DNA of 64,000 bases, from positions 822,332 through 886,331 of the forward strand of contig JAVSMS010000001.1 in NCBI GenBank assembly GCA_032027085.1, given 5' to 3'. This DNA comes from Pseudorhodoplanes sp. GTDB taxonomy: Bacteria; Pseudomonadota; Alphaproteobacteria; Rhizobiales; Xanthobacteraceae. The notes below the pieces were generated by a model that ran no database searches, had not been told where the DNA came from, and was given only the letters and a program-made list of their open reading frames with translations. Positions 11,945-33,823 of the stretch are shown here, piece by piece. A program made the position numbers and the translations under genes. The stretch's first letter is position 1, and every line of letters begins with the position of its first letter.

Positions 11945-12515
11945 TATCTTGAAAACAGCTGCCGCGGTGCTGTTCTTCGCCGCCGCTGCGGTTCCGCCCA
12001 TTAGTCCGGCCATAGCGCAGACGCCGGCCGGGCATTTCGGCTTCGGTGTGCCGGTCGGCGCCGATGAACTGGCAAAATATCTGTCTATACATCCAGACGG
12101 GCGTGGTCTGCCGCCCGGCAGCGGCACGGCGCAAGCCGGCGCCAAGATCTATGCTAAGAATTGTCTCGCCTGCCACGGCGACAAGCTGCAGGGGATTCCC
12201 GATCCAGGCATCGGCGGCGATCGCTTGATCGGCGGCCGCGGCTCGCTAGCGAGTAAGACGCCAGTAAAGACGGTCGAGAGCTACTGGCCCTATACGACGA
12301 CGTTATTCGACTACGTCAAGCGGGCGATGCCGTTCTCCGCGCCGGGCTCGCTCAGCGATTCCGACGTCTATGCGGTAATCGCTTATATCCTTTCGGAGGC
12401 GAAGATCATCAAGCCAACCGAGACGATGGACGACAAGACGCTGCCGAAGATAGTGATGCCGAACAGGGACGGTTTCATCCCCGACGCGCGACCAGAGTTA
12501 CCACTCTATCGCTAG
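11931..12515 (+). CDS. soxD: SoxD-type monohaem cytochrome c
   Basis: 194 residues with a signal peptide ending at SPAIAQ. There is one haem-binding CLACH motif at about residues 78-82 and a likely axial Met in RAMPFSAP. The C-terminal helix SDVYAVIAYILSE is typical of class I cytochromes. It overlaps soxC by 14 bp and has GGGAGG before its ATG inside soxC. The Paracoccus SoxD is about twice this length and diheme; this one keeps only the N-terminal haem domain, as in several other SoxCD pairs. It passes electrons from SoxC to the respiratory chain. Confidence 0.88.
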   Translation: MSTPDILKTAAAVLFFAAAAVPPISPAIAQTPAGHFGFGVPVGADELAKYLSIHPDGRGLPPGSGTAQAGAKIYAKNCLACHGDKLQGIPDPGIGGDRLIGGRGSLASKTPVKTVESYWPYTTTLFDYVKRAMPFSAPGSLSDSDVYAVIAYILSEAKIIKPTETMDDKTLPKIVMPNRDGFIPDARPELPLYR

Positions 12516-16439: not shown

Positions 16440-17005
16440 CCGAGGCCTCAACAGGTAGTTCTCGGATAGACCGAGTGTGCTGATCTGAACACGCGGCAGT
16501 TTCGGCTTTCGGAGATATCAGCAATGCTGCCGATCACCTAGGCAGGTCAAAAATAGATTTTAGAAGCGCGTTATGCTTTTCTCAAACGCTCGGCCGAAGG
16601 CCCGAAGAAGATGCACGACGCTTACGCCCAAAGCGCGGTTTATCGTCTAGATCCCAAACGCATTGTTCTGATCGACAACACAAAGGGATTTGGCCACAAG
16701 GAGACGCTCGAGCTATAGGGCGCCGATCACGCGCGGCGATCGAGCTTGACCTCGTTTACATTGACGTTGCGACAAGTCGTGGCGACGCGCGGTGACTTCG
16801 AGACTAAGAGGTTGATCAAAGAGACTTATGAGTGCGAAGTCGCTATTTGGCTAACGGCGAAGTCTACTTGCCTAAGTTGGGGGCCTTCGCCATACACACA
16901 TGAACGGTTCATGTTCAAGCCCCCTTTGGAAAAGGTCGGATCTGTGAACGGACACCCACTGCAGGCAGTTGACTGGCCTGCAGCGGAAGTCTGGCGATCC
17001 AGCTC
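16440..17005. other. Decayed intergenic stretch with one copy of a short repeat
   Basis: No intact gene. Positions 16,503-16,553 match 17,995-18,049 (shared core ATATCANCAATGCTGCCGATCA, CTAGGCA and AAAAAT). Just after it, a plus-strand run (16,591-16,719, SAEGPKKMHDAYAQSAVYRLDP...GHKETLEL) ends in a proper stop but has no start, so it is probably the tail of a lost gene. Confidence 0.5.
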
Positions 17006-17734
17006 TTACCATGGGAAAATCTCGCCGTTGAAGTTGAAAAACTTGCCGGCATCGGCCGCGGTCAAGTTCGCAATCACGGTCCGCACTCCAGTGACCGATT
17101 GATCAACGGAATTTGTTGCCTTCGGGCCGCCCATATCGGTCTGTGTCCAGCCAGGCGAAATGGACACAAGAATGATACCTCTGCTCTGGTACCATTCACC
17201 TGCGCTGCACGTAAGCATGTTGAGTGCGGCCTTGCTCGTGCGATAAGCATAGCGGCCCGCCTGCCATGTGCTCGAGATTGATGCCAGGGTCGACACCATC
17301 ATGACTGCAACGGGTCGCTGCCCGGCGGCGAGATTGTCCACGAAGGCGCCGCAAACGCGTGCCGGTCCCAACAGATTCGTGTTCAGCACGTCCAGCCAGC
17401 CCTGGTAATCGTAAGTGCGCAGGTCCGGATCGTCCGTTCCTTCATATGCCCCGCTGCCATAGAAGACAGGCTCCACCACACCGGCATTGTTTATCAACAC
17501 CTCAAGCGGTTTGCCCTTGATCCGCTCGGCGGCGGCGTTCACCTCGTCAGCATTGGTCACATCGATGCGCAGCAGCTTCAGCCGATCGCCAGACTCCTTG
17601 GCAAGCGCTTGCAAGTGCTCGGCGCGTTCGGGATCGCGGCAAGCTGCATAGACCTGCCAGCCATCCTTCAAATACTGCCGCACAAACTCAAGTCCGATTC
17701 CACGATTGGCACCCGTGATCAAAGCCGAGGACAT
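17006..17734 (-). CDS. Short-chain dehydrogenase/reductase (SDR), C-factor-like
   Basis: 242 residues of classical SDR fold. It has a GANRGIG cofactor motif near the N-terminus, NNAG (VLINNAGVVEP), a catalytic Ser in MVSTLASIS and the YAYRTSK active site (Tyr-x3-Lys), with SPGWTQTDMGG after it. The sequence resembles the carbonyl-reductase/CsgA subgroup. The start is the ATG at 17,734, with GAGG six bases upstream; the frame is open to 17,785 without a good ribosome site. It stands alone, so no substrate can be guessed. Confidence 0.88.
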   Translation of the reverse strand: MSSALITGANRGIGLEFVRQYLKDGWQVYAACRDPERAEHLQALAKESGDRLKLLRIDVTNADEVNAAAERIKGKPLEVLINNAGVVEPVFYGSGAYEGTDDPDLRTYDYQGWLDVLNTNLLGPARVCGAFVDNLAAGQRPVAVMMVSTLASISSTWQAGRYAYRTSKAALNMLTCSAGEWYQSRGIILVSISPGWTQTDMGGPKATNSVDQSVTGVRTVIANLTAADAGKFFNFNGEIFPW

Positions 17735-18134
17735 TTGTAACCTCACCGAAGAATAGATGAGTTTATCACTTTGTCGGCGATGCACGAACGTCCTTTAACA
17801 TTGAGCGCTCGATAACAGTTCCGGGCATCCAGACCTGCCTTCCACCGATTATCCGGACAGCGTCGTCGCAACCACCGGCAGTTGGTATACACCGGAGGAC
17901 GCGTCATTCGGCCCTTGCGCCGCTGTGTGGCGGACAATGATTTCGGGAACGCTTGTAGCCTTATTGGGGCGACCAATCTGGATACGCGGAAGGTCGCCAT
18001 TCGGCGATATCATCAATGCTGCCGATCACTAGGCATGTACGCTAAAAATGGAAATTCATGCGACAAGACCGCTTTGATTTTGCTTGGTGCGTCGAATGCG
18101 GCAAAAGCTACCCATATTATCCTAATGACATCTC
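17735..18134. other. Intergenic stretch with second copy of the short repeat
   Basis: This 400-bp gap holds the repeat copy at 17,995-18,049 and otherwise nothing I can support. The leftward 85-codon frame at 17,743-18,000 has no ribosome site and an unlikely composition. No terminator-like hairpin is evident. Confidence 0.45.
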
Positions 18135-19412
18135 CTAGCCTGTATATTCCAGGATGTGCAGCCCCAATCCCCAGCGATCAGCCATGTAGATCAAGCCAGT
18201 TTCAGGATCGACTTGCACATCGTTGCTCTGTGGGCAGCAGCGCTCCTTGTTGCCCGCCGGAATGTAGTAGCCGACTTCCTTTGGGTTGAATGGATTGGAC
18301 CAGTCGATAATACGCAGGCCGGCATTGAACCAGCAGATGTAGACTAGGTCATCCTTCTTCATGTCGAGCCAGATATTGTGTGCGCCATATCTCGCACCGG
18401 TTCGGCACCATTTCTGGTCAATCGGCCGCATCGTATAAGGATCAATCTCATAGGGCATGAAGGTGCTGACAAGCTGCGGCTTATGCACATTACGCAGATC
18501 GTAGAAGCTCACGAAGGCGGGCGGATAGTCACAATTGACGGTCGTTGTCTCTTGCGTCGCAATCGCGAATTCCGATCCTTCCGGCACCAGGAAGCTATGA
18601 TAGCAACCGGGCCAACCATGCGTCTCGTGCGGATTTTCTCGCCACATCAGGGTAGGCTTGCGAGGATCGGTCAAATCAAACATCGCGATGCCGCCATCCC
18701 AATAGCCAGCAGCGACGTAATTCCCGAACGGATTGCCCTCGTGAATCCAGACACCTTTTCCATCGACGATGTCGTTGTTCCAGCTCGGCGCTTCTCCCTC
18801 CTTTTGGCCAGGGATCGCACCAAACCCGATCAGCTCCGGATTCCACGGGTCTCTCATGTCATGGACGAGTAGGACCTTGCCCTTGTAGCCGTCCTTGAAG
18901 CCGGAGCTATAAAGCAAGTTGCGTTTCCGATCATAGATCGGCCGATGTATGCCGAAACCGTCCGTGCGGATGTATCGGACAAACTTCGGATTGAACGGAT
19001 CAGTATTGTCGAAAATCCGCAAACCGGGCACCGCGTCGGGAAAATCATTGCGCAGCCTGGGACGCAATTCGCTGTTTGTCAGCAGAACCTCATCGTTGAT
19101 ACGCAGAACCTTGTGCGTTCTCGCAGCGCGAGAATCGACAATCTGGTTCATAATCTTTGGTTTCGACGGGTTGGACACATCCAGGATCGTCATACCGTCA
19201 TGTCCGTTCACGCCTGACGCTGCGACGTAGCAGATACCCTTTCCGACTTGGATCTGAAACGCATCGCCCCACCCGTTTAAATCTGAATGCGCCACCAGCC
19301 TGACGTTGCGCGCCTCCTCAGGCCACGGCTCTGTCAGTTGATGATCCACACCGATATATTGTTCGGGTCCACCACCGCGAACGGGATTGGGATGGTAATA
19401 AGGTCTGGACAC
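18135..19412 (-). CDS. LVIVD-repeat beta-propeller protein
   Basis: About 425 residues with repeated blades of the form G-x-x-I-x-D-x-S-N-P-x-x-P. Examples are MTILDVSNPSKPKI, LRIFDNTDPFNPKF, IAMFDLTDPRKPTL and LRIIDWSNPFNPKEV. This is the LVIVD repeat family, expected to fold as a propeller. Several His residues (AHSDLNGWGDA, THKVLRIN, ETHGWPGCYHS) recur at blade tops and could bind a metal. No signal peptide is seen, so it is probably cytosolic. The start is the GTG at 19,412 with GGAGAG close upstream; the alternative ATG at 19,460 is nearer the operator. It is divergent from the PadR gene. Confidence 0.82.
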   Translation of the reverse strand: MSRPYYHPNPVRGGGPEQYIGVDHQLTEPWPEEARNVRLVAHSDLNGWGDAFQIQVGKGICYVAASGVNGHDGMTILDVSNPSKPKIMNQIVDSRAARTHKVLRINDEVLLTNSELRPRLRNDFPDAVPGLRIFDNTDPFNPKFVRYIRTDGFGIHRPIYDRKRNLLYSSGFKDGYKGKVLLVHDMRDPWNPELIGFGAIPGQKEGEAPSWNNDIVDGKGVWIHEGNPFGNYVAAGYWDGGIAMFDLTDPRKPTLMWRENPHETHGWPGCYHSFLVPEGSEFAIATQETTTVNCDYPPAFVSFYDLRNVHKPQLVSTFMPYEIDPYTMRPIDQKWCRTGARYGAHNIWLDMKKDDLVYICWFNAGLRIIDWSNPFNPKEVGYYIPAGNKERCCPQSNDVQVDPETGLIYMADRWGLGLHILEYTG

Positions 19413-19470
19413 GTAAACTCTCCGTCTGCTCCCAGGCCGGTCAGTGCTCAAAACATGCACGTATTGGATT

Positions 19471-19488
19471 TATGGTCCAAGTACCATA
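19471..19488. promoter_or_regulatory. Palindromic operator TATGGT-N6-ACCATA, copy 1
   Basis: Perfect dyad, extended here to TTTATGGT-N6-ACCATAAA (19,469-19,490). It lies between the divergent LVIVD-protein and PadR genes. Three further copies precede the other operons of this block, which makes the PadR protein the likely binder. Confidence 0.7.
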
Positions 19489-19598
19489 AATTGGATTGCG
19501 AAGCGTTGCAAGCGGATGGATATTCACATCATGCAAATCGAGATTTACGCCAAGCGGACAAGCTGGCATGACACTCGACAGCTGATTCGAGATTCGGG

Positions 19599-20225
19599 AT
19601 GAAACGGGCCAAAGGCAGCGACGCAAGGAAGAGCACCGACGTGTCGGTGCTCGGCTATTCGCTTTTGAGCCTCCTCGCCCGCAAGGATCGGACCGGTTAT
19701 GAGCTGTCGCGCTTTACATCTGGCGCCCGCAGCATGATTTTTTCCTCATCTGGGCACAGCAACATCTACAAGGAGTTAGCCAAGCTGAAAACGCGCGGCT
19801 ATGTGACGTTCCGGATCATCAAGGAAGCCCGCCCTTTCGACAAGAAGGTCTATTCGCTTACGAAACTTGGACGCGAAACGCTTCGAACATGGGTAGCTTC
19901 GCCGCCCAGCATGTTCTCCAGCCGCCGCGAACTTAACATTCGTGCCCATGCTCTTTGGTTACTCGCGCCTAACGAGGCGATCGGATTGCTCGACAAGCAG
20001 ATCGCGATTGTCCAAGCGGAAATCGAGGAACTGGATGCTCATAGCAAATACTTGCAGGAGGAGAATGATATTACCTTTCCTCCGCCTGCCCGGCACCCAC
20101 TGTTCGGCACCTATTCCAACATCGTCCTGGAAACTGACAGCCGCAGACTCATGATTGATTGGTGCAAATCAATCAAAGCACAGTGGAGACGCGGTGCCCG
20201 CGCGCGCAAGGCCAGAGCCGGCTGA
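19599..20225 (+). CDS. PadR-family transcriptional regulator
   Basis: 208 residues. The N-terminal winged helix is typical of PadR (VLGYSLLSLLARKDRTGYEL, then SNIYKELAKLKTRGYV and KKVYSLTKLGRETL). A C-terminal dimerisation coiled coil follows (AIGLLDKQIAIVQAEIEEL). PadR proteins usually repress degradation genes and release DNA on binding small, often phenolic, acids. It starts 187 bp from the divergent LVIVD gene, with the palindrome between them, so autoregulation is likely. The basic C-terminus is unremarkable. Confidence 0.88.
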   Translation: MKRAKGSDARKSTDVSVLGYSLLSLLARKDRTGYELSRFTSGARSMIFSSSGHSNIYKELAKLKTRGYVTFRIIKEARPFDKKVYSLTKLGRETLRTWVASPPSMFSSRRELNIRAHALWLLAPNEAIGLLDKQIAIVQAEIEELDAHSKYLQEENDITFPPPARHPLFGTYSNIVLETDSRRLMIDWCKSIKAQWRRGARARKARAG

Positions 20226-20269
20226 TGGGCTGGGAGGCGGATTTTCCCGCCTCCACGCCGTTGCTCAGT

Positions 20270-21238
20270 TTATTCCTTCTTCCTGTGCCCCGTCAGCTTG
20301 GCAAGTCCGGCCTGAAACGCCGTTTGCTCCTCCAGGTACTTGCCGTAACTCTCCGGCGTATTCGGCTGCGCCGGCAAGGTCATCCCCAGCGGCTCCAGGC
20401 GGCTGCGGAATTCCGGGGTGTTGATCGTCTCGTTGAGATACTTGTTCAACGTGGCAACGACCTCCTTTGGCGTGCCGCGCGGCGCGCTTAGACCCACAAA
20501 GGCATTGTGCTCGAAATTCTTGAAGCCAAGCTCCGCCATTGTAGGAACATTCGGTAGCCCTTCAATGCGTTTGGCATTGGTGACCGCAAGAGCGCGAACC
20601 TTGCCGCCGTCGATTAATGGCTTTGCACTTGGGTAGAAGACGAAGGCGCCCTGCACTTCTCCGCTGGCCACGGCAGCTGCCGCTGGCCCGGTGCCGCGAT
20701 AGGCAACCTCGACGATCTTCGTGCCCGCGAGTGAATTCAGCTGCGATACAGCAATAGCCGGTGAAGTCGCGGGTCCTGATGTCGAGAAATTGACCTTTGT
20801 CGGATTGGCCTTGGCAAAGGCGATCAGATCGGGAAGGGTCTTGAACTCCGACTGGGCGTTCGCAATCAGGACAAGCGTTGGCCCATCAGCAATCTTGCCG
20901 ATTGGAGTGAGATCCGTCAGAGCATTATAGGGCACGGAGAGATAGTGCAGGTTCTGCGTTTCTGAGATGGCGCTGACCAGCAACGTGTAGCCATCGGGCT
21001 CCGAGCGAACGACATAATGCCCGCCGTTCACACCAGAGGCGCCAGGCTTATTCTCCACGACAATTGTGGCGCCGGTCCGTTTTTGCATCTCGGCAGCGAG
21101 GAGACGCGCCGGCACGTCCGACAATCCGCCCGGCGCGAACGACACGACGAAGGTGATCGGTCGATTGGGATAATTCTGGGCCGTTGCGGTGCCGAGCATC
21201 AGCACCGCCAGAATAGCACTCGAAATAAGCCGGAACAT
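20270..21238 (-). CDS. Bug/TctC-family tripartite tricarboxylate-type solute-binding protein
   Basis: About 322 residues from the ATG at 21,238 (AGGGA upstream). It has a signal peptide (MFRLISSAILAVLMLG, cleavage at TATA-Q). Family marks are YPNRPITFVVSFAPGG, NKPGASG, PDGYTLL and PSAKPLIDGGKVRALAV. These periplasmic proteins bind carboxylates with an extended loop over the ligand. No TctA/TctB membrane genes are nearby, which is common for Bug proteins. It follows the M20 gene by ~60 bp in the same operon, so it may scavenge the substrate or product of that enzyme. Confidence 0.9.
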   Translation of the reverse strand: MFRLISSAILAVLMLGTATAQNYPNRPITFVVSFAPGGLSDVPARLLAAEMQKRTGATIVVENKPGASGVNGGHYVVRSEPDGYTLLVSAISETQNLHYLSVPYNALTDLTPIGKIADGPTLVLIANAQSEFKTLPDLIAFAKANPTKVNFSTSGPATSPAIAVSQLNSLAGTKIVEVAYRGTGPAAAAVASGEVQGAFVFYPSAKPLIDGGKVRALAVTNAKRIEGLPNVPTMAELGFKNFEHNAFVGLSAPRGTPKEVVATLNKYLNETINTPEFRSRLEPLGMTLPAQPNTPESYGKYLEEQTAFQAGLAKLTGHRKKE

Positions 21239-21298
21239 CGTTCTTTCCCTACTCATGTTTGCAGTTGCACATTGCCGATTGATCTCTTCCGGATGCCA

Positions 21299-22567
21299 TT
21301 ATTGGCCCGCCGGCCTGTTACAGAGGTCGAGCGCGGCGGCGAGATAGATTCGCGAGGCTGTTACAACGTCATCGAGCAAGACGTGGTCCCCGATTGAATG
21401 CATCGACTTGCCTTTTGCGTCCGGATGCAGGCGGCCGCCCGGCCCGAACTGAACGCAAGGCACGTCGTACCTGCTGAGATGAACTGCATCAGACCCAGGT
21501 CGGCGGATGAACGACGGCGGCCGCTCCCCCATGATGGCGGTCTGGGCATTGCCCATCGCTTCAACGACTGGAAGCTTTTCATCCAGGAGCAATGGTGGAT
21601 CCGTGACGAGGAATTCCAGCTTCGGCTCCGGCGTGTCGTGCCGCTTGGCAAAATCTCGCAACATCGCACGCAATTGCCGCTTCACTTGATCTGCCGTTTG
21701 TCCAGGCAGTGTCCGGATATCAAGATAGACGCTGCATTCCTGCGGATTTCGTGACAAACGCCACGGTGCGCCGCCGCGGATGCACGCGAGCGTCACGTTC
21801 GCTCGCTCGTCCATGAATTCGTTCGCGGCCTGGAATTCGGACGCCCAGCGGTCGATGTCGTCGCACAGCAAGCGCGCAATCCTGATGGCGTTCACCGTGC
21901 CAGGCTTGTTGGTCAAAGCCGAATGAGCGACCGTCCCTTGCACGGTCAAGCGCACCCACAGACAACCCATATTTGCGGTGCAAATGCGCAAGGAGGTCGG
22001 TTCAGCGAGAATGGCGTAATCGGCTGTCACGCCATGCGACACCAGGTGCTTGCTTCCGATTCCATAGCCGGAATAATCGCGCCCCTGAAACTCTTCGGCC
22101 GGGGCTTTTTCGATCTCGCCGACGACAGCACCGAAAGAGATGTCGCCCTTCAGCCGGATACCAGACTTTGCGATTGCCTCGAGAGCCACGACGAGCCCCG
22201 CGAGACCACTTTTCATGTTGTTCGCCCCGAGACCCCAAATCCATCCGTCCCGATAGACGCCCTTCGGCTTGAAGCCCTCACCCACCAGGTAATCTTCATC
22301 TCCGCTATAGGAGGTGTCCATGTGGCCGGTAAGAAGGAGGTTCAGGCCGGTACCGGCGCCCCGCAAATGCGCCACCGCATTGGGACGACCCTCTTCAACG
22401 GGTTGCTCAAACGCGTCCAGACCCGCGCCGACCAAGCGGTGCACGATATAGCTTGCCATGCCAGATTCGTGGCCGGTCGGGCTGCGGATATCGATCATAT
22501 CCTGCAAAACGACACGCACCGTCTCCGGCGTAATATAAGCAGCGGCCTTTTGAAAATCGGTATGCAT
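21299..22567 (-). CDS. M20-family amidohydrolase/deacylase with altered metal and catalytic residues
   Basis: 422 residues with the M20 layout: LTGHMDTSYSGD (first metal His and Asp), a lid domain in the middle and a C-terminal GGRLH metal His. Two canonical positions differ. The bridging Asp of the usual G-x-x-D-x-K is Asn here (GANNMKSG), and the Glu-Glu catalytic pair is Glu-Ile (VVGEIEKAP). This may mark a distinct subfamily with one metal or another chemistry rather than a dead enzyme, since the rest is well preserved. It is the first gene of the operon with tctC, and its start lies 18 bp from a PadR-type palindrome. Confidence 0.85.
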   Translation of the reverse strand: MHTDFQKAAAYITPETVRVVLQDMIDIRSPTGHESGMASYIVHRLVGAGLDAFEQPVEEGRPNAVAHLRGAGTGLNLLLTGHMDTSYSGDEDYLVGEGFKPKGVYRDGWIWGLGANNMKSGLAGLVVALEAIAKSGIRLKGDISFGAVVGEIEKAPAEEFQGRDYSGYGIGSKHLVSHGVTADYAILAEPTSLRICTANMGCLWVRLTVQGTVAHSALTNKPGTVNAIRIARLLCDDIDRWASEFQAANEFMDERANVTLACIRGGAPWRLSRNPQECSVYLDIRTLPGQTADQVKRQLRAMLRDFAKRHDTPEPKLEFLVTDPPLLLDEKLPVVEAMGNAQTAIMGERPPSFIRRPGSDAVHLSRYDVPCVQFGPGGRLHPDAKGKSMHSIGDHVLLDDVVTASRIYLAAALDLCNRPAGQ

Positions 22568-22584
22568 GTCCGATGCAGGTTTAT

Positions 22585-22602
22585 TATGGTTCTACGACCA
22601 TA
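22585..22602. promoter_or_regulatory. Palindromic operator TATGGT-N6-ACCATA, copy 2
   Basis: Perfect 6-bp arms with spacer TCTACG, ending 18 bp upstream of the M20 start codon. Occupancy would block transcription of the M20-tctC pair. Confidence 0.7.
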
Positions 22603-22669
22603 CTTTAACGACCTTATTATGCAAGGTCTCTCGCACAATGACGGGTCGGCCGAGCATTGAACTGCACAT

Positions 22670-22687
22670 AATGGTCTTTTGACCACA
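22670..22687. promoter_or_regulatory. Imperfect operator copy 3 (AATGGT-N6-ACCACA)
   Basis: A weaker match with 5-bp arms, ATGGT and ACCAC. It is 85 bp (about eight helical turns) upstream of copy 2 and just downstream of the ABC ATPase stop. It could be a secondary site for looping or cooperative binding. Confidence 0.45.
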
Positions 22688-22692
22688 GGCAG

Positions 22693-23460
22693 CTACGAAT
22701 ACTCGAAGCCGATGTAGCTTCCAACTTTCTGTATAAGTTGGCCAACCTCCGGAGATGATCGGGTCTCAACCGTACGAGGCCGTGCAACTGGCACATCCAA
22801 AACGGCCTGAACTCGGCCCGGGCGGAACGACATAACGACGACGCGATCGGCGAGAAAGACAGCTTCCGCAACACTGTGCGTAATGAGAATTGTTGTTTTT
22901 CGCGACTTTGCCCAGATATCCGCGAGATCTAGGTTCATCCGGTTTCGCGTCATCGCGTCAAGCGCCCCGAATGGTTCATCCAGCAGCAAAATTCCCGGAT
23001 TGTGAACCAAGGCGCGGCAGATCGAAACTCGCTGCTGCATGCCTCCGGACAGTTCTTTCGGATAGTTCTTCGCAAAGTCTCCAATTCCAGCAAGTTCAAG
23101 TAACCCGAGAATATGATCGTGCTGCGATTTAACATCTATACCGAGCACTTCAAGCGGAAGCGATACGTTCTCGTAGACCGTTCGCCATTTCATTAAGACA
23201 GGAGATTGGAAAACAATACCAACATTGAGTAGTGGCTTTGTGACGATATTTCCATCTACAATGACTTTACCAGCCGTCGGCGAGATAAGACCTGCAACCA
23301 GCTTCAGGAGTGTGGACTTGCCGCATCCACTTGGTCCAACGACGGCCACAAACTCCCCTTCCTTTATTTCAAGATTAACATTGGAAAGTGCCAAAGTATC
23401 GCTATCGCGAGTTTTATACCGCATTGAAACGTCCTGTAATGCAATTGCGGTACCTGGCAT
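22693..23460 (-). CDS. ABC transporter ATPase (SsuB/TauB/NrtD type)
   Basis: 255 residues with Walker A GPSGCGKST, a Q-loop (VFQSPVLMKW), signature LSGGMQQR, Walker B ILLLDEPFGALD and the H-loop (ILITHSVAEA). The pattern belongs to importers of nitrate, sulfonates, taurine or pyrimidine precursors. The start is the ATG at 23,460, one base after the permease stop; the longer frame lies inside the permease. It is the last gene of the cupin-cupin-SBP-permease-ATPase operon. Confidence 0.92.
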   Translation of the reverse strand: MPGTAIALQDVSMRYKTRDSDTLALSNVNLEIKEGEFVAVVGPSGCGKSTLLKLVAGLISPTAGKVIVDGNIVTKPLLNVGIVFQSPVLMKWRTVYENVSLPLEVLGIDVKSQHDHILGLLELAGIGDFAKNYPKELSGGMQQRVSICRALVHNPGILLLDEPFGALDAMTRNRMNLDLADIWAKSRKTTILITHSVAEAVFLADRVVVMSFRPGRVQAVLDVPVARPRTVETRSSPEVGQLIQKVGSYIGFEYS

Positions 23461-23461
23461 G

Positions 23462-24277
23462 CTACATTCCCGTAATAACCATGAGTTCCTCACGTTCGGC
23501 CGCGCTCCACGGTACGACGAGCCGCTCAAGAAACCCGATAAGTGCAAACAGCACGAAGCCAGCGGCCGTAAGGACCATCAGGCAAGCGAATACCAAGTCT
23601 GTCTTTAATTCAGAGGTTGAGATGACGATTAAGTAACCTATCCCCTGACTGCCTCCGATGAATTCACCTACAATCGCGCCAATAACCGCCAGGGTGACGG
23701 CAATGCGCATCCCACTAAAAAGAAACGGCAAGCTGTGAGGAATTTGCGCTTTAACAAATACTTTCCATCTCTTGGCGCCCAACGACCGCAACAGATCGAC
23801 CAATTCTTTTTCAACCATCGTGAGGCCGGTGGCCATATCGATTACGATCGGAAAAAAGGCGATCAGAAAGGCGACGACCACCTTAGATGAAATTCCGTAT
23901 CCAAACCACAACAGCACAAGTGGAGCTACCGCCACTTTCGGGATTAGCTGGGTGGCGATTACGATCGGCATGACGACATCTTTCGTCCGCTCCGATGTTG
24001 TGACGATAATCGCAACGACAACCCCGACAAGCACAGCAGCTGCAAATCCAAGTATCGTCTCCAACATCGTAATCGACAGATGCTGGGTGAGGAGACGCCA
24101 GTCCCCAATGATCCGTTGAGCGATACTGGACGGAGCGGGCAACAAAAAATCGGAGATTCCGAAGAGCCGAACCATCGCTTCCCAGGCGATGATTACTATT
24201 GAAATGCCAACGGCTCCACGAGTGGTCCGGCGCAGCAGATTTGGGGCAATCATGGGTGCGGCCACGCTACTTAGCAC
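23462..24277 (-). CDS. ABC transporter permease (SsuC/TauC type)
   Basis: 271 residues with six predicted TM helices. The BPD_transp_1 EAA loop reads LLRSLGAKRWKVFVKAQIPHSLPFLFSG, as in SsuC-like permeases. The GTG start follows the binding-protein stop directly; an alternative ATG at 24,253 is eight codons in. Together with the ATPase and the NMT1-like binding protein it forms a complete importer. Confidence 0.92.
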   Translation of the reverse strand: MLSSVAAPMIAPNLLRRTTRGAVGISIVIIAWEAMVRLFGISDFLLPAPSSIAQRIIGDWRLLTQHLSITMLETILGFAAAVLVGVVVAIIVTTSERTKDVVMPIVIATQLIPKVAVAPLVLLWFGYGISSKVVVAFLIAFFPIVIDMATGLTMVEKELVDLLRSLGAKRWKVFVKAQIPHSLPFLFSGMRIAVTLAVIGAIVGEFIGGSQGIGYLIVISTSELKTDLVFACLMVLTAAGFVLFALIGFLERLVVPWSAAEREELMVITGM

Positions 24278-25291
24278 TCACGGCACGTCAATCCTGGGAA
24301 TGAACTCTGCTGTATAAACATTCTCCAGCGACAGGGGCTTGGTCACGCCCATGTACTTTTGGGCCATATCGTAAGTTACTGCCATACGCTCTTTGGACAG
24401 ATAACCCAGTCCGTGCTTTTTAGTCTCGCTCGTCGAAATTAGCTTTTCATCGATCTTCCAGGTCGCAAGCGCGATGTCTGTGCTCATCGTCGGAACATGC
24501 TTCTTCAGAATTGCAACTGCCTCTTCTGGGTTCTTTAAGGACCACGCAATGCCCCTTAGAGAGGCTCTGAGAAACCCACGGATCTTAGGGCTTTTGGATT
24601 GCGCAAGTTTCGAATTGACGACAATTCCCGTTCCGTAATTATCAACGCCATAATCCGAGTATGGCATTATCTCGATATCGTCGCCCTGCCGTTGCGCAAT
24701 TGGCCGCATGACCGCCGCGTTGTCAGTGAATCCGGTAATGGCGTCCACTTGCTTGGTCAACAGCGCTGGGTATGTCTGGTCGCTCGCCATAAGGACGGAC
24801 TGATATCCCTCGAGTTGAGTAGTCTTCGCGAATGCCTTCAGCAGATCGAGCGAAGAACCGGCGGACGCACTGCCGATGCGCTTACCGGCTAAATCTTTCG
24901 GAGACCTAATCTTGGAGCTTCTAAGAACTAAGATGGTTTCCGGCCCTTTGTTAAAAAACGAAGCAACCAACATGACTGGAGGATTGCTCTCCGCTTTGGC
25001 CGCTATCAACGAAGCCACACTCAAAATGGCGAAGTCAGCGGAGCCGGTAGAAATTCGCTTGATTGAATCGGCAGTACCATAGCCGCGCTCGATAGCGACA
25101 TTCAGCCCCTCCTCCTTGTAGTAACCCTTCTCCTTTGCGACAAAAAATCCCACATGTCGGCCGCTGATCAGCCACTCGAGGGAGAGCTTGACATCGTCTT
25201 CCGCTTTCGCCGTCGTCATGAAGACGACGAAGACGGCAGTGATTAAAACGGCCGAAATCGCGATAAACCGAGGTCCAATTCCAACCTTCAT
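24278..25291 (-). CDS. NMT1/THI5-like ABC substrate-binding protein
   Basis: About 337 residues with a signal peptide (VLITAVFVVFMTTAKAED). Family marks are LEWLISGRHVGFFVAKEKGYYKEEGL near the N-terminus and the LAGKRIGSASAGSS phosphate-type loop. NMT1-like proteins bind pyrimidine precursors, nitrilotriacetate-like acids or aromatic sulfonates/carboxylates. A strong GGGAGGA precedes the ATG at 25,291. The substrate cannot be told, but the shared operator with an M20 deacylase points to an acylated or amide-bearing acid. Confidence 0.9.
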   Translation of the reverse strand: MKVGIGPRFIAISAVLITAVFVVFMTTAKAEDDVKLSLEWLISGRHVGFFVAKEKGYYKEEGLNVAIERGYGTADSIKRISTGSADFAILSVASLIAAKAESNPPVMLVASFFNKGPETILVLRSSKIRSPKDLAGKRIGSASAGSSLDLLKAFAKTTQLEGYQSVLMASDQTYPALLTKQVDAITGFTDNAAVMRPIAQRQGDDIEIMPYSDYGVDNYGTGIVVNSKLAQSKSPKIRGFLRASLRGIAWSLKNPEEAVAILKKHVPTMSTDIALATWKIDEKLISTSETKKHGLGYLSKERMAVTYDMAQKYMGVTKPLSLENVYTAEFIPRIDVP

Positions 25292-25328
25292 CACAAGTCC
25301 TCCCGTTTTTTATACAACCTGAATCACC

Positions 25329-25673
25329 TCACGCTGTCCCTTCAGGAACAGTGAGATGAAACAGTTTCAACATTCCCGATCCCGTCTGCCTAATTTTTGC
25401 AGTCTCTCGTGGCGCCAAGTAAACACCACCGCCCTTCTCAACCTCATACTCGGCGGAATCGATCTTGATGACACCACAACCCTCTAAAAAATAAATGAGC
25501 TGGTGCGTTGGTCGGTCGGCAACAACTTCGAATTGCGCCCCGCCTTCAATGACGCGAAGAACCCCATGCGAATAGACCGCGCCACATAACTCTTGGTTCA
25601 AAATTTCCGCCGATGATCCACTCGAATCTTTGACCATCGGAATGGAAGCCGTTTTCACAATTGTCGTGGCCAT
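25329..25673 (-). CDS. Cupin-fold protein (first metal motif lacking)
   Basis: 114 residues with a single cupin barrel: LIYFLEGCGVIKIDSAEYEVEKGGGVYLAP is the second half of cupin motif 1 and motif 2. The usual His-x-His of motif 1 is missing (PTHQLIYFLEG keeps one His), so metal binding is doubtful. AAGGG precedes the ATG. It lies between a second cupin and the transporter genes and may act as a ligand-binding or isomerase-like partner of the neighbouring cupin. Confidence 0.8.
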   Translation of the reverse strand: MATTIVKTASIPMVKDSSGSSAEILNQELCGAVYSHGVLRVIEGGAQFEVVADRPTHQLIYFLEGCGVIKIDSAEYEVEKGGGVYLAPRETAKIRQTGSGMLKLFHLTVPEGTA

Positions 25674-25701
25674 GGCGATACCCTTAAACGACGTTCATCA
25701 C

Positions 25702-26118
25702 CTATTTGATATGAGAGCGGACCGTGCCGTCGACCTGTTTCCACGTCAGGCCTTGAGCTCCGCCATCGAGAATTACGGTCTTGTGCTTGTATGGACCCTG
25801 AAACTCAAACATGAGGATGTCCTCCACAGCATTAAGCCGGTGCTTCTCCTCTTCGGGAATAAAAACCAAATCGCCGGCCTCAATCTTCTTGTTTCCGTCC
25901 TCGGTATCGATACTGCCGCTGCCTTCAAGGATGAAGTAAAAGTGCTCACACTTCTCGTGGTAGTGATACGGCGAACTCGATTTAGCGCTCAAACGCTGCA
26001 CGCCAGCGAGTAGATCTTGAGTTCCAGCGAGATCTTTATTGACGAACGGGATTCGCTCGCGCCCCGGAATGACCGAAGTCATTTTTGGCATTTCATCCTG
26101 ATTGAAAACATAAGCCAT
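25702..26118 (-). CDS. Cupin-domain metalloprotein
   Basis: 138 residues. Cupin motif 1 is intact (SPYHYHEKCEHFYFILEGSG, with His-x-His and Glu ligands), as is motif 2 (AGDLVFIPEEEKHRLNA, with the final His), so it should hold a metal ion. Single-domain cupins of this size are isomerases, dioxygenases or decarboxylases in small-acid catabolism. It is the first gene of the transporter operon, with an AGGAAG ribosome site; the palindromic operator lies ~100 bp upstream. Confidence 0.85.
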   Translation of the reverse strand: MAYVFNQDEMPKMTSVIPGRERIPFVNKDLAGTQDLLAGVQRLSAKSSSPYHYHEKCEHFYFILEGSGSIDTEDGNKKIEAGDLVFIPEEEKHRLNAVEDILMFEFQGPYKHKTVILDGGAQGLTWKQVDGTVRSHIK

Positions 26119-26216
26119 CGCTTCCTACTCCCAGCGCGTTGCCTTCGCTCGGGCCGCAGCGCGAGCTGGTTACGCCGACGATCGGACTATTCACCAGGCG
26201 CATATGATCAAGGCGC

Positions 26217-26234
26217 TATGGTCCAATGACCATA
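26217..26234. promoter_or_regulatory. Palindromic operator TATGGT-N6-ACCATA, copy 4
   Basis: Perfect dyad with spacer CCAATG, about 100 bp upstream of the cupin/transporter operon. The spacing is consistent with covering the promoter. Confidence 0.7.
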
Positions 26235-26596
26235 TGATTGCGCCGAACGTTTCTGATGTCAAGCTCGCAGGGCTCTGTGCGTGGCTTTTCGCAAACGCAA
26301 TTGCTCCGAGCGGCAAGTCGCAAGATGACGTTTGCTCAGTCGAGGCATAGACTTCCGCGTGCGCGAAGAGGATAAACAGTTGTGACGCGGCGAACCCGAG
26401 CGGCCGTGGTGCGCCGAAACGTCACGCCTGGCGCGACGCTCTTAAATCGGGAACCATACGTCGCCACCTGGTCCGAACACCGCCGCGGAAATCTTCAATC
26501 ATTTCGCGCATTTCTTGAGGCGCTCACACGGCGTCGCCCGATCTCGATGATCGGACAAACGAAGAAGAAAACGGCAATCGATGCTAGCTGTGAGCC

Positions 26597-26775
26597 TCAA
26601 CAGTTTGTTCCCTGGTTTACGTCGCGGAAGACCGATGTGACGGCCAACGCGCGGCCGTGCGTTTACAGCGAAACAGGCAATTCTTGCTTGCGATATCGCC
26701 TTCGATAGCGAGTTCATTCCATGTATCGGCGTGATCGAAATAATTGATCGGCACGTGTTAGTGCTCGTCCTAAAA
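26597..26775 (-). pseudogene. C-terminal remnant of a Rieske/FAD reductase paralog
   Basis: Read leftward, the DNA gives VPINYFDHADTWNELAI and then EGDIASKNCLFRCKR. The intact gene at 7657-9189 has VPINYVGHAETWDEIAI and DGDIASKNCLLRFKR. A one-base frameshift follows, after which GRALAVTSVFRDVNQ matches GRTLAVASISRDVEN, ending at TGA (26,597). Only this C-terminal end survives. The nucleotide match to 7700-7860 is obvious by eye. Confidence 0.85.
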
Positions 26776-26792
26776 CGGAGTAGGCTTATTAG

Positions 26793-26809
26793 ATATATTT
26801 ACAATGTAT
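26793..26809. promoter_or_regulatory. Palindrome upstream of the nor cluster, NsrR-like
   Basis: ATATATTTACAATGTAT is a 17-bp dyad with two mismatched pairs around a central A. AT-rich dyads of this form resemble NO-responsive NsrR sites (AAGATNCATTT half sites), and the location ~108 bp before the first gene would suit. No FNR/NnrR-type TTGAT-N4-ATCAA box was found. Confidence 0.3.
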
Positions 26810-26916
26810 GTTTTTTGACCTATAAGCCTTGATCACGAGTACTAACTTCGAGCTTGGCTGTCGCGCGATGGGTCCTCGGCCCATTAACAGCCTATAGACG
26901 GCCGTGGAGGGGGCTG

Positions 26917-27186
26917 ATGTCTACGCAGCGCATCATACGGTTGGCTCTGTCGATCCTTGCCAGTGGCGCGAGCCTGGCGCTGTCCTGGCCCTACTGGCGC
27001 GACTTCGGCTACTGGGGCGAGTCACACACGATGTGGCTGGTCTATTTCGCAGTTGGTTTCGCGCTGGCTGTTTATGTCTTCTCTGTATTCTTCAATAGCC
27101 TGGGCACGCTGTTCGAGCACGATGCGCTTGAGCGCGGCGAGCAGCCGGACACCAAAGTATCTCCGAGCACGGGAGGTACGTCATGA
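26917..27186 (+). CDS. Small membrane subunit of the nor-like cluster
   Basis: 89 residues with GGAGG just upstream of the ATG and two TM helices (about 6-24 and 39-63). The loop between them is aromatic (WPYWRDFGYWGESH) and the tail is acidic. The stop overlaps the norC start (ATGA). It resembles no canonical Nor protein I know, but strict coupling to norC and norB suggests a third structural or assembly subunit, comparable in size to small subunits of cbb3 and other haem-copper complexes. Confidence 0.7.
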   Translation: MSTQRIIRLALSILASGASLALSWPYWRDFGYWGESHTMWLVYFAVGFALAVYVFSVFFNSLGTLFEHDALERGEQPDTKVSPSTGGTS

Positions 27187-28154
27187 GCTGCAAGCCTGGG
27201 CAACTATGTTATGAGAGCGTGAAGCGCCATCGTGCACTTGCGGTCCTCGCCCTGATGGCCGTTATTTTTCTTGCCCTGTCGGCTGCCTCGTTCGTCGATT
27301 CGCGCGGCCAGATCGTGCCGTCGAAAGTCAGTTATGCCAGCCACGATGTAGTAGCGGGAAAGCGAATTTTCCAAGCCTACAATTGCATGGGCTGTCACAC
27401 CATCGTCGGTAACGGCGCCTATCTTGGGCCAGATCTCACAAAGCTCTACGGTAAGGTCGGGCCTGCGTGGATCGAGGCGTTTCTGCCGGCCGCGGGAAGC
27501 TGGCCGACGAGCGGCGCGGTGCGGTTGCAGCTGCAGAACAAGGCGATTGCGGCCGAAGCAGGTACCGACACGATCGACGGCTATCTTGAAAAATATCCCG
27601 ATGCCGCCGAGCGCATCGGCCGGCGCGGCGGTCACGCGACGCTGATGCCGAACCTGCCGCTCAGCCGTGAGGAAGTCGGCCAGTTAACCGCCTTTCTCAA
27701 ATACACCTCCGAGATGAACACCGAAGGCTGGCCACCGGTGCCAAAGGTGAACGGGCTCAGCTTCCCGCATGCCAAGCCGATCCCCGTCGCGGCTCAATCC
27801 ACCTCTGTCACGGTGGCGAGCCTTCAGACAGGAGCGGCCCAGCCAATCTCCAGGATTGCGCTCGGCGAGACGCTGGCAAAGGACAACGGCTGCATCGCCT
27901 GTCATGCGCCGACCAAAGAGAAGCTGGTCGGCCCCGGCTGGGGCGGCCTTTACGGCTCGACCGTCAAGCTCGCTAATGGCTCGAGCGTGGTCGCGGACGA
28001 TGCCTATCTGACCGAGAAGATACTGAAGCCCGACGCCAAGCTCGTCGCGGGGTATGAGGCGGGAGTCATGCCGTCTTTCGCCGAAATACTCGATGCCGAC
28101 CAGATCGCCGCCATCGTTGGCTATATCCGTAGTCTGAAGGGACGTAAGCCATGA
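27183..28154 (+). CDS. norC: Diheme NorC-like cytochrome c
   Basis: 323 residues, more than twice the usual NorC (~150). An N-terminal TM anchor (about residues 19-37) leads into a NorC-like domain with CMGCH (68-72) and the phrase CHTIVGNGAYLGPDLT. A linker is followed by a second cytochrome domain with CIACH (237-241) and VMPSFAEILDADQIAAIVGYIRSL. That C-terminal domain resembles the cytochrome c tail of caa3 oxidase subunit II, without the CuA domain. It should carry electrons from periplasmic donors to the catalytic subunit. It overlaps its neighbours on both sides by ATGA. Confidence 0.85.
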   Translation: MSCKPGQLCYESVKRHRALAVLALMAVIFLALSAASFVDSRGQIVPSKVSYASHDVVAGKRIFQAYNCMGCHTIVGNGAYLGPDLTKLYGKVGPAWIEAFLPAAGSWPTSGAVRLQLQNKAIAAEAGTDTIDGYLEKYPDAAERIGRRGGHATLMPNLPLSREEVGQLTAFLKYTSEMNTEGWPPVPKVNGLSFPHAKPIPVAAQSTSVTVASLQTGAAQPISRIALGETLAKDNGCIACHAPTKEKLVGPGWGGLYGSTVKLANGSSVVADDAYLTEKILKPDAKLVAGYEAGVMPSFAEILDADQIAAIVGYIRSLKGRKP

Positions 28155-29851
28155 TCCGGATCGAATACACGACCCAGCGCCTCAGCCTGCGTTTCTTTAT
28201 GGTTATGCTGGTGCTGTTCTTCGTTCAGACCGGCCTCGGTCTTCTGCTGTCCGCTCAGCATATCGATCCGACGCTGCTGGCCGGAACGCTGAGCTTCAAC
28301 GTCATTCGCACCCAGCACCTCAATCTGGCGATCTTCTGGGTACTGTCGGGCTTTATTGGCACCATCCTGTTTGTCGGCCCGCTGTTGTCAAAACGCGAGC
28401 TCGCCGCGCCATGGCTGATCAAGTTTCTGTTCTACGCCCTTCTAGCTGTGGTCGTGTGGAACTTGGCAACGCAGATGTTGGCGCAGAAGGGCATCGCCGG
28501 ATGGTGGATGGGTCAGCCGCTGCTACAAGAGGGCCTCGAATATCTCGAGGCCGGTCGTATCGCCGACGTAATCATCCTGATCGGCTTCGCGATCCTGTGC
28601 TATGTCGTGCTGCGCACCTTTCCGCCTCTGTCGCAGTGGAACGAAATCCATTGGGGCCTTGGACTTGGCGTGCTCGCGCTGACGGCGGTGTGGGTATTCG
28701 GCATGTTCTTCGTCGAGCGTCTCGACCTACAGGAGTATTTCCGCTGGTACGTCGTCCACTACTGGGTCGAGGGCGTGTGGGAGGTGATCCATATCTCGCT
28801 GGTCGGCTTCCTGCTGGTCTTGATGTTCAAGGCCGATGTGAAGTCAGTCGGCTATGCCGTGTTCTGGGGCATCTCGCTGGTGTGGCTGTCGGGCCTGCTC
28901 GGAAACGCGCACCACTATTTCTGGATCGGCACGCCCGAGTTCTGGCAGTTCTGGGGTTCGCTGTTCAGCGCCCTGGAGCCCCTGCCGCTAATCTTCTGCT
29001 TCTGGCATATCTATCTCGACGCCCACGAGGACGGAAAGCCAATCTCCAATATGCCGGCCTTCGCTTTTCTGCTCGGCTCGGTCGTGCTTGAGCAGGTCGG
29101 CGCCGGTATCCTCGGCTTCACCATGACCTTCGCCCTCACCAATGTCTGGTCGCACGGCACCTGGGTGACGGCCAGCCACGCACACCTGGCTCTGTTCGGT
29201 ACTTTTGGCATGCTCGGTCTGTCGGCGGCCTATTATGCCGTACCGATCATGCGCGGCGCGGAGCACTTCGACCAGCGCGCCGGCAAGCTCGCGTTCTGGC
29301 TGGTGTTCACTGGTATGCTGGGGCTCGGCTTCGCCTTCGCGATCGGTGGCACCATTCAGATCTTCGTCTATCGCACGCTGGGACTCGACTGGTTCGGCGG
29401 CGACGTGGCGCCCGCGATGCAGATTACCAAGATCATGGTGCCGATCTTCGGTTTCGTGTTCGCGGTCGGCGTCTGTCTGTTGGTGTTTGACCTGCTTACG
29501 CTTGGACACCGTCGCAGCGTCGTGTCCAACGTTCCTGCAACGATGATGGCCGTCTCGGGTGCGCCGACGCGCTGGGAGTACTGGTTGACCGGGTGGGAGA
29601 CCGGACTGTGGCTGCTTGCCATGTGGGTGTTTGGCGGCATCATCACGCTCGGCCTGCTCAGCTTCAATCTCAGCACCGTGCAACAGGGCAGCTCTATCTT
29701 CCCCTACATGATGGCAGGCGTTGGCTATCCGGGACTCCTTCTAGTGACATTATTCTTCGTCTGGCGCTTTCTCTCATCCCTCGAGGCGCGCAGCCGCGCG
29801 AGCTTCCTCCCGCTTCCCGCAGCTGTGGCGTCGCCTGCCGGCGCGGCCTGA
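28151..29851 (+). CDS. norB: Nitric oxide reductase catalytic subunit (NorB-like haem-copper family)
   Basis: 566 residues with about 12-14 TM helices. Residues typical of cNOR are present: HYWVEGVWEVIH (FeB His and the VEG Glu), GNAHHYFWIG (paired His), ALEPLPL (second conserved Glu) and SHAHLALFG (haem ligands). The Tyr-His cross-link motif and K-channel of oxygen reductases are absent, which argues for NO reduction (2 NO to N2O). It has no N-terminal quinol-oxidase extension, so it depends on the cytochrome subunit. No NorQ/NorD maturation genes follow. It is longer than the usual ~450-residue NorB because of extra C-terminal helices. Confidence 0.85.
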   Translation: MIRIEYTTQRLSLRFFMVMLVLFFVQTGLGLLLSAQHIDPTLLAGTLSFNVIRTQHLNLAIFWVLSGFIGTILFVGPLLSKRELAAPWLIKFLFYALLAVVVWNLATQMLAQKGIAGWWMGQPLLQEGLEYLEAGRIADVIILIGFAILCYVVLRTFPPLSQWNEIHWGLGLGVLALTAVWVFGMFFVERLDLQEYFRWYVVHYWVEGVWEVIHISLVGFLLVLMFKADVKSVGYAVFWGISLVWLSGLLGNAHHYFWIGTPEFWQFWGSLFSALEPLPLIFCFWHIYLDAHEDGKPISNMPAFAFLLGSVVLEQVGAGILGFTMTFALTNVWSHGTWVTASHAHLALFGTFGMLGLSAAYYAVPIMRGAEHFDQRAGKLAFWLVFTGMLGLGFAFAIGGTIQIFVYRTLGLDWFGGDVAPAMQITKIMVPIFGFVFAVGVCLLVFDLLTLGHRRSVVSNVPATMMAVSGAPTRWEYWLTGWETGLWLLAMWVFGGIITLGLLSFNLSTVQQGSSIFPYMMAGVGYPGLLLVTLFFVWRFLSSLEARSRASFLPLPAAVASPAGAA

Positions 29852-31005: not shown

Positions 31006-31584
31006 ATGGCTGGCAAGCAGGCAAAGATACTCACTGATCCCCATGTGCGCGATCTCCTTGTCTACGCCGATAACACCCGATATCCGCTGCGAAACCGGAT
31101 CATTGTCTTGCTATCTGTGAAAGCCGGGCTTCGCGCTGGCGAAATTGCAAAGCTAACTTGGCGAATGGTCCTCGACGCTGGTGGCGACATCGGGCCGGCT
31201 ATCGAGTTGCATGACGCCGCCGCCAAGAAAGGCAGCGGCCGCAGAATCCCGGTACATAACGAGCTTCGGCAGGCGTTGCAGGACTTGCGGCAGAACTCAA
31301 AGGGCGATGGTCCAATCGTCGCCTCGGAACGAACCGGTCGCGCAATGACGCCACGGAGCATCGTTCTCTGGTTTGCGACTGCCTACCGACATATCGGGCT
31401 GGACGGTTGTTCGTCGCATTCGGGTCGCCGAACGTTTATTACCCGTGCCGCACGTGTTGTTCACAAGGCCGGCGGCTCGCTGCGCGACGTCCAGCTGCTT
31501 GCCGGTCACCGTTCAATACAGACGACCGAACGCTACATTGACGGCGATACCGACGCCCAGCGGCGCCTCGTATCACTGATCTGA
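31006..31584 (+). CDS. Short tyrosine recombinase/integrase (catalytic domain only)
   Basis: 192 residues. Catalytic motifs are present: Arg in KAGLRAGEIAKLTW, His-x-x-Arg in HSGRRTF, AGH in LLAGHRSIQTT and the nucleophile Tyr in ERYID. The usual N-terminal SAM-like core-binding domain is almost absent (about 20 residues precede the fold), as in some site-specific integrases of small mobile elements and integron-like recombinases. It shares one base with the next gene (TGATG), so the pair is co-translated. Confidence 0.88.
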   Translation: MAGKQAKILTDPHVRDLLVYADNTRYPLRNRIIVLLSVKAGLRAGEIAKLTWRMVLDAGGDIGPAIELHDAAAKKGSGRRIPVHNELRQALQDLRQNSKGDGPIVASERTGRAMTPRSIVLWFATAYRHIGLDGCSSHSGRRTFITRAARVVHKAGGSLRDVQLLAGHRSIQTTERYIDGDTDAQRRLVSLI

Positions 31585-32666: not shown

Positions 32667-32783
32667 TAGTATGATTATACCATCATGATTTGGCGCTCGA
32701 AACACGAGAGAAGGCGACACAATTTCGAGAAAGTGACCCGAGTACCTAGGCGGAGGAATTCCGCCAAACAGCCGAAGACTTCA

Positions 32784-32806
32784 AAGGGGCCCCAAGCGGG
32801 CCCCTT
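32784..32806 (+). terminator. GC-rich hairpin, probable terminator of the recombinase pair
   Basis: AAGGGGCCC-CAAGC-GGGCCCCTT is a perfect 9-bp stem located 118 bp after the previous stop and 25 bp before the next gene. It is followed only by a short T-containing stretch, so it could also be an attenuator for the next gene. Confidence 0.5.
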
Positions 32807-32830
32807 CGGCATTTCTGGAGACCTCTACTA

Positions 32831-33382: not shown

Positions 33383-33392
33383 TGACAACGCG

Positions 33393-33419: not shown

Positions 33420-33488
33420 TCTCTTCAACCTCCAATTCGCAACCCCCTGCAATCGAGCGAGACAAGCTCTCGCTGGAAAGGACATGTC

Positions 33489-33818: not shown

Positions 33819-33823
33819 TCAGC

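Follow-up and report, generated by a model that had tools for sequence, protein, structure and literature searches.

For regulators of the PadR family, a binding motif with ATGT/ACAT arms and a spacer of 8-10 has been published (PMC3506622). In the 5-nitroanthranilate pathway, an aminohydrolase is followed by a monocupin ring-cleaving dioxygenase and then by a lactone hydrolase, and heteromeric cupins of the hydroquinone 1,2-dioxygenase type have two different subunits, one with a working metal site (both from PMC10306065). The aminohydrolase, NaaA, is thought to attack its substrate through a metal hydroxide, in a nucleophilic aromatic substitution (PMC11903332). Furthermore, the title of one listed reference refers to a seven-bladed propeller with a binuclear metal centre. 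Here, we analysed a stretch of 64,000 nucleotides (nt) from Pseudorhodoplanes sp. (contig JAVSMS010000001.1, positions 822,332 to 886,331; hereafter the window), in which a block at 18135-26234 encodes a PadR-family regulator, an LVIVD propeller protein, an M20-family hydrolase, two cupins, and proteins of two transport systems. We hold with moderate confidence that this block may be a horizontally assembled, PadR-repressed module for importing and degrading an N-substituted, probably aromatic, acid.

The regulatory part of this reading starts from a palindrome. TATGGT-N6-ACCATA occurs without mismatch at 19471-19488 (operator 1), 22585-22602 (operator 2), and 26217-26234 (operator 3), and a fourth copy with two mismatches lies at 22670-22687; an earlier sequence-only reading of the window had placed three perfect copies and one imperfect copy at the same coordinates. 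The genome is a single contig of 4,968,360 bases, and the perfect palindrome was found in it exactly three times, every time within the block; the motif is therefore not frequent elsewhere. Among the 41 palindromes of the 6-N6-6 layout in the window, with 39 different arms, TATGGT was the sole arm occurring three times, and any arm occurring at least three times was seen in 1 of 200 block-shuffled windows. When one mismatch was allowed, three further sites appeared genome-wide, all inside open reading frames (ORFs; one pnp-like, one DctP-like, and one without clear identity, named by eye from the sequence) and none in a promoter. Since all three extra sites were intragenic, a regulon beyond the block was ruled out at one mismatch; the remaining two-mismatch sites genome-wide were not checked singly. 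With up to two mismatches, 36 sites were counted genome-wide versus 40 for a reversed control pattern. Because of these counts, the copy at 22670 is indistinguishable from chance by sequence, and it was ruled out as an independently significant site. It is a possible auxiliary operator, credible by position alone, since it sits inside the 125-nt gap upstream of the M20 gene and 85 bp from operator 2.

The uniqueness of the sites and their placement were both computed. Operator 1 lies between the LVIVD gene (18135..19412, minus strand; PF08309 in Pfam), which reads away from it, and padR (19599..20225, plus strand; PF03551, 36.8 bits, cut-off 27) on its other side, 110 nt from the padR start. 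Operator 2 is located 17 nt upstream of the start of the M20 gene, and the M20-TctC unit on the minus strand lies downstream of both operator 2 and the 22670 copy. Operator 3 precedes the cupin A start by 98 nt and stands ahead of the minus-strand operon for cupin A, cupin B, and the binding protein, permease, and ATPase of an ATP-binding cassette (ABC) transporter. The perfect sites thus stand upstream of three transcription units, and the earlier statement that the copies head the operons of the block holds. Moreover, operator 3 shares one base with the -10 hexamer of TTGACA-17-AATCAT (26262-26234, minus strand), the best-matching promoter-like sequence in the block, which lies ahead of the cupin-ABC operon; promoter-like sites in general were no commoner in the block than in shuffles (7 vs 6.2). 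The contact of operator 3 with this -10 hexamer and the short distance from operator 2 to the M20 start are typical of repression, and we infer repression over activation. The same features argue against the improbable alternative of an activating or dual role for PadR, which draws on AphA, a PadR relative that activates virulence genes.

The link between the palindromes and PadR was supported by comparison with other loci. The solved chain nearest to the window PadR was 5x11 of the PadR family, which we take to be Bacillus subtilis PadR, and AphA came second. We tested 27 PadR relatives, comprising 18 of the window's family and 9 taken from 16 plasmid records that had a match; one (L139) gave no blast match and was left out, and 26 were scored. 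TATG-N10-CATA was present within -250 to +60 of the regulator's own start in 19/26 relatives, compared to 1 of 263 control windows in the same loci. The spacing of 10 was the only one to recur, in 19 loci, and no other spacing between 4 and 16 was found in more than one locus. In all 17 in-family relatives (L074, L075, L125-L138, and L140), two TATGC-N8-GCATA dyads stand 16 nt apart at the gene start, a probable sign of autoregulation. The pattern was also present in two distant relatives, L124 on a Bradyrhizobium plasmid and L143 from Rubrobacter. When the window sites are written as ATGG-N8-CCAT, their spacing is the same as that of the ATGT/ACAT motif, and one base of four differs per arm. 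A literature search on PadR operators with TATGCA or TATG returned no papers.

We regard the palindromes as likely PadR operators. It is improbable that they serve a regulator encoded elsewhere with PadR as a bystander. Such an arrangement would suit the 110 nt between operator 1 and the padR start, as the tandem sites of the in-family relatives are close to their starts; however, PadR was the sole regulator recognised in the block by Pfam, the architecture and outer bases match PadR operators, and the genome has no perfect site elsewhere. The PadR regulon proposed by the sequence-only reading thus likely stands, now with comparative support for the PadR link: it is confined to the block, holds the 3/3 perfect genomic sites, and has a PadR-type architecture in most relatives tested, and its fourth copy is retained by position only.

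The inner base of the dyad was further compared with the recognition helix of each regulator. The helix HQQ went with ATGC (34 sites, 17 loci) and HSS/HSQ with ATGT (3 sites, 2 loci), and the window PadR, with the helix ...GHSNIY..., combines HSN with ATGG. It is conceivable that the helix positions H-[QS]-[QN] read the inner operator base, as a simple recognition code for the PadR family; we rate this as doubtful and put it forward jointly with the catabolic route outlined below. If true, the helix/operator pairing would allow quick prediction of PadR target sites in other genomes.

In the mechanism that we propose, a PadR repressor would occupy three, perhaps four, matching 18-bp operators and shut off the LVIVD propeller, M20 together with TctC, and a two-subunit cupin enzyme together with the ABC importer. 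Release of PadR would come from an effector, probably the compound taken up or a product of it, and would lead to joint expression of the three units. Entry or sensing of the compound would fall to the ABC importer and TctC, and hydrolysis of a C-N bond (of an amide or an aromatic amine) to M20; the cupin A/B pair would use a divalent metal to transform the ring or a product derived from it, and the LVIVD protein would be a metal-dependent ester or lactone hydrolase. The family placement of these proteins and their conserved likely metal ligands were computed; the reaction order and the substrate class, an N-substituted aromatic acid, are what we infer.

The M20 hydrolase (21299..22567, minus strand) was assigned by Pfam, by a search of solved relatives, and by a tree. 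Its best solved relative was 5-nitroanthranilic acid aminohydrolase, NaaA, with 150.8 bits, and the next different enzyme scored 64.3 bits. In a tree of 14 rows, which did not include YlmB, NaaA joined the clade of the window M20 at 96/95 support, on a long branch. The Asp of DMK and the second Glu of EE are two of the usual M20 metal ligands. The window M20 and NaaA both have Asn in place of this Asp and Ile in place of this Glu; throughout the clade the replacements are Asn and Ile/Val, and the four classical rows keep Asp and Glu. A Roseomonas neighbour of the clade, L078_b, has Asn and Leu at the two places. The window M20 retains H82, D84, E151, E189, H215, and H390. The protein formerly named a deacylase is therefore, by its sequence relatives, an M20 hydrolase of the NaaA-type clade. 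To our knowledge, NaaA is the sole M20 enzyme that hydrolyses an aromatic amine, and the window M20 clade may be a second lineage around it, which makes a testable enzyme idea. No papers were returned by a literature search on nitroanthranilate with aminohydrolase.

Cupin A (25702..26118, minus strand; Pfam and alignment) has a complete HxH...E...H metal site of the gentisate/salicylate type, and its H52, H54, E58, and H93 were invariant in 5/5 aligned rows (the window and four others). Its partner, cupin B (25329..25673, minus strand; a weak Pfam match to AraC_binding, 21.5 bits, cut-off 21.1), lacked the metal motif in 5/5 rows and had one invariant His, H57. The adjacent pair was kept in four further loci. 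Two of these (L114 and L115) come from genomes that also hold an LVIVD protein of the Nitrospinota type, and here the pair adjoins a Gfo/Idh oxidoreductase, recognised by Pfam in L115 and by eye in L114. The third, L120, is a second cupin A/B pair of this same genome (L120:10000-10786; C1:2729699 on), flanked on one side by a molybdenum (Mo) protein, whose PF21423 domain is pyrogallol hydroxytransferase-like, and on the other by a 4Fe-4S subunit. In the fourth, L121, from genome G160 of the same order, a subunit pair of a pyrogallol-hydroxytransferase-like Mo enzyme lies about 5 kb from the cupins. Since the pair is found twice near Mo enzymes, aromatic substrates are weakly suggested for it. 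Cupin A relatives (E 1e-20) were found in 2 of 397 sampled genomes of the order, this genome included. The structure model of cupin A had a mean predicted local distance difference test (pLDDT) score of 58.8, too poor for a structure search, and literature searches on cupins with transhydroxylase and on resorcinol/hydroxyhydroquinone enzymes gave no papers. The conservation of such small cupins as a pair, in which just one partner has metal ligands, is again a testable enzyme idea.

The surroundings of the two Mo-associated pairs were also read. Upstream of the L120 pair, the genes appear by eye to encode a branched-chain-type ABC transporter. At L121:808-13610, a catabolic cluster contains the cupin pair, the AhtL-like Mo enzyme, a fused E1 dehydrogenase, an M24 enzyme, and a succinate-semialdehyde dehydrogenase; the nearest NCBIfam model for the M24 enzyme was DddP, far under the cut-off.

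The same regulon could carry out another chemistry, in which M20 would be an amidohydrolase for N-acyl amino acids or peptides, the cupins an isomerase/epimerase pair, and the substrate an acylated amino acid or an opine-like compound. We regard this as possible and as the less likely choice. The six residues kept in the window M20 suit it, as does L078_b, which also has Asn at the DMK place and stands beside ABC transporter genes and another M20, with an amidase 3 kb away; the type of ABC importer in the block is moreover not specific for aromatics. Against it, NaaA is the closest solved M20 relative by a wide margin, two usual metal-site residues are changed as in NaaA, and in two loci the cupin pair has AhtL-like Mo enzymes, which belong to aromatic metabolism, in its vicinity.

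The LVIVD protein probably starts at the GTG at 19412, codon 17 of a longer ORF from 19460, because a GGAG stands ahead of it and most close homologues begin with Met at that position. Its structure model (pLDDT 83.9) gave 5hrm, the phosphotriesterase of Sphingobium TCM1, as the best Foldseek match (E 4.7e-17; next entry 4.7e-10), and a profile search was also best with 5hrm (E 1.5e-19). The binuclear metal ligands of the TCM1 enzyme are presumably E201, H258, H389, E407, and H475, and the expected residues stand at these numbers in its sequence. H172, H288, E304, and H361 of the LVIVD protein, invariant in 20/20 rows, aligned with H258, H389, E407, and H475. The model thus points to a metallohydrolase-related propeller. 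The literature search, in the portions of text that it returned, contained no function for LVIVD propeller proteins, and a catalytic role for them is a testable idea.

The LVIVD gene also recurs beside transport genes. In 4 of 29 loci (L010-L038), TctC and LVIVD were no more than about 1.5 kb apart, and in OCS116-type marine records, for example L051:6982-11290, TctC, TctA, TctB, and LVIVD stand in a row, with genes for a periplasmic binding protein and an ABC system after them. From these rows and the 4/29 loci, the LVIVD-TctC association recurs, and the L051 row suggests that LVIVD may act on a transported compound. In other OCS116-type records (L054, L060, L063, and L064, at about 7200-12460), we observed an M24 creatinase-like protein, a 271-residue protein without Pfam match, LVIVD, and a CoA-transferase III.

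Two kinds of transport protein are encoded in the block. The TctC/Bug-type solute-binding protein (20270..21256, minus strand; PF03401, E 3.9e-58) has BugD, Bug27, and terephthalate-binding proteins as relatives. It is an orphan receptor: the tripartite tricarboxylate transporter set is incomplete in the block, with no TctA or TctB alongside. Four TctA genes are present elsewhere in the genome, of which three are full-length and the fourth was read as two pieces; no genome-wide search was made for TctB. The ABC importer consists of an NMT1/THI5-type solute-binding protein (24278..25294, minus strand; PF09084, E 5.4e-48), a permease (23462..24277, minus strand; PF00528), and an ATPase (22693..23460, minus strand; PF00005), whose probable start at 23460 was picked by eye in a longer ORF from 23547. 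The nearest solved structures of the binding protein were 4nmy and 3ix1, of the ThiY/THI5 type. ThiXYZ and YlmB import formyl-aminopyrimidine and then deformylate it, and the block could by analogy serve pyrimidine (thiamin) salvage, with the NMT1/THI5-type protein importing formyl-aminopyrimidine and M20 deformylating it. The ThiY/THI5-like structures speak for this, but it is very unlikely: no thiamine pyrophosphate (TPP) riboswitch was matched in 16500-27500 at E up to 1, and PadR control, TctC, cupins, and LVIVD are not known to have a place in that pathway. Among the block proteins, Pfam and NCBIfam recognised neither enzymes leading to central metabolism nor a phenolic acid decarboxylase. 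The earlier description of the block as a self-contained system is therefore right in part only, and to call it complete says too much, given the orphan TctC, the TctA genes elsewhere, and the lack of a recognised route into central metabolism.

The distribution of the genes was surveyed in several samples. M20 relatives were found as the own copy only, both in 297 sampled genomes of the order (E 1e-60) and in 398 of the phylum (E 1e-36), in searches that score few candidates per genome. The nearest LVIVD sequences, at 78-82% over at least 423 residues, were present at 12 of the 34 loci found, 8 of them in records titled Nitrospinota, Nitrospinae, or Nitrospinaceae; L072 was not counted, its 88% match covering just 60 residues at the end of a contig. 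Across 101 relative genomes, the two best LVIVD matches were at 71% and 67%, and own-family matches of at least 280 residues did not exceed 38%. Among 12 LVIVD-bearing genomes searched, an M20 relative at 50-56% was present in 8 and a cupin A relative at 54% in 2, each time on a contig differing in length from that of LVIVD, and a PadR match (E 1e-6) was present in 1, at 31%. Plasmids gave no match to cupin A or cupin B, and their LVIVD and M20 matches were all below 60%, those listed being about 30%. An intact module transferred as a unit was thus not found in the sampled genomes and plasmids. Since M20 relatives sit on contigs of a different length from that of LVIVD in 8/12 genomes and LVIVD is closer to sequences outside its own family, we read the block as probably assembled by horizontal transfer rather than moved as a ready module. 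Base composition was compared as a possible sign of transfer: the GC content was 0.506-0.586 in the 2-kb windows that overlap the block and 0.494-0.644 over the whole window. As far as the retrieved texts go, a literature search combining PadR, cupin, tripartite tricarboxylate, and M20 gave no paper on such a module.

A number of results weigh against the PadR-repressed, aromatic-acid module. On the regulatory side, the 17 in-family PadR relatives form one close group and are non-independent evidence, and the exact TATG-N10-CATA pattern is absent in 7/26 relatives. PadRs of the HSQ type have an exact ATGT-N8-ACAT in 1/6 loci only, the HQQ locus L147 has no dyad, and the HQQ locus L137 also carries an ATGT dyad. 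On the enzymatic side, the window M20 has H215 and H390, the latter at the classical C-terminal His place, and NaaA has Tyr and a gap there; the window M20 should therefore not be filed as NaaA, and because both His are kept, amide hydrolysis is about as likely for it as NaaA chemistry. Cupin A scored 24.3 bits with the gentisate 1,2-dioxygenase model (cut-off 442.1), so that it belongs to no recognised ring-cleaving family, and 8ch4, a 5-nitrosalicylate dioxygenase (5NSDO), was not among its 19 matches. The superposition of LVIVD on 5hrm was loose (root-mean-square deviation 8.9, TM 0.63 by query, 17% identity), and E201 of the TCM1 enzyme has no conserved counterpart in LVIVD. Finally, the whole module was found in no second genome among the samples searched, and the co-function of the parts therefore rests on the shared operators alone.

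The block might encode an undescribed route for a natural amino-aromatic acid, in which a hydrolytic deaminase of the NaaA type, a monocupin oxygenase of two subunits, and a lactone/ester hydrolase with the phosphotriesterase fold act one after another, with genes whose nearest relatives are unlinked in Nitrospinota-like genomes brought under one PadR. We regard this route as speculative. The regulon is small enough for a full test.

Beyond the block, three further features of the window were observed. At 27183-29851, adjoining the block, a cytochrome c protein and a COX1-type subunit look like nitric oxide reductase NorC/NorB. Genes for a phage-type integrase and a DNA methylase at 31006-35990, some 5 kb distant from the block, are perhaps part of a mobile element. 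A second apparent catabolic set at 40203-48994 includes a metallo-beta-lactamase fold protein, a CoA-transferase III, a Mo hydroxylase, and a thiolase-like protein.

The part names of the sequence-only reading were refined by these comparisons: the deacylase became a member of the NaaA-type M20 clade, the cupins a conserved pair with metal ligands in one member, and the propeller a metallohydrolase relative. With the Sphingobium TCM1 phosphotriesterase, a haloalkylphosphorus hydrolase, the LVIVD protein shares the seven-bladed propeller and 4 of the 5 presumed ligands, which match its invariant residues; however, it has by eye no secretion signal, and its metal site is incomplete (4/5). The cupin pair resembles hydroquinone 1,2-dioxygenase in having two different subunits with a metal site in only one, a likeness without sequence membership. 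As in the 5-nitroanthranilate pathway of Bradyrhizobium JS329, an M20 of the NaaA clade stands alongside cupin proteins; in contrast to that pathway, the cupins are of 114 and 138 residues without a match to 5NSDO, and no lactonase was recognised by family. The M20 clade, the cupins, and the metallohydrolase-related propeller thus invite a comparison with the NaaA pathway, as an analogy and not as homology of the whole route. On the side of regulation, Vibrio AphA is a PadR relative whose operator, TATGCA-N6-TGCATA, has the same 6-N6-6 layout as the window palindrome; its helix is HQQ, compared with HSN in the window, and it governs other genes. B. subtilis PadR/padC, a system of phenolic-acid repression, is of the same family, with 5x11 as the nearest solved chain, and its dyad has the same ATG(x)-N8-(x)CAT spacing (PMC3506622), whereas the inner base is G/C in the window and T/A there, and the window has three operators over a block for uptake and catabolism. 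Compared with these systems, the block would be a PadR-controlled catabolic island, itself of a known kind, that brings together three enzyme families with functions worth testing.

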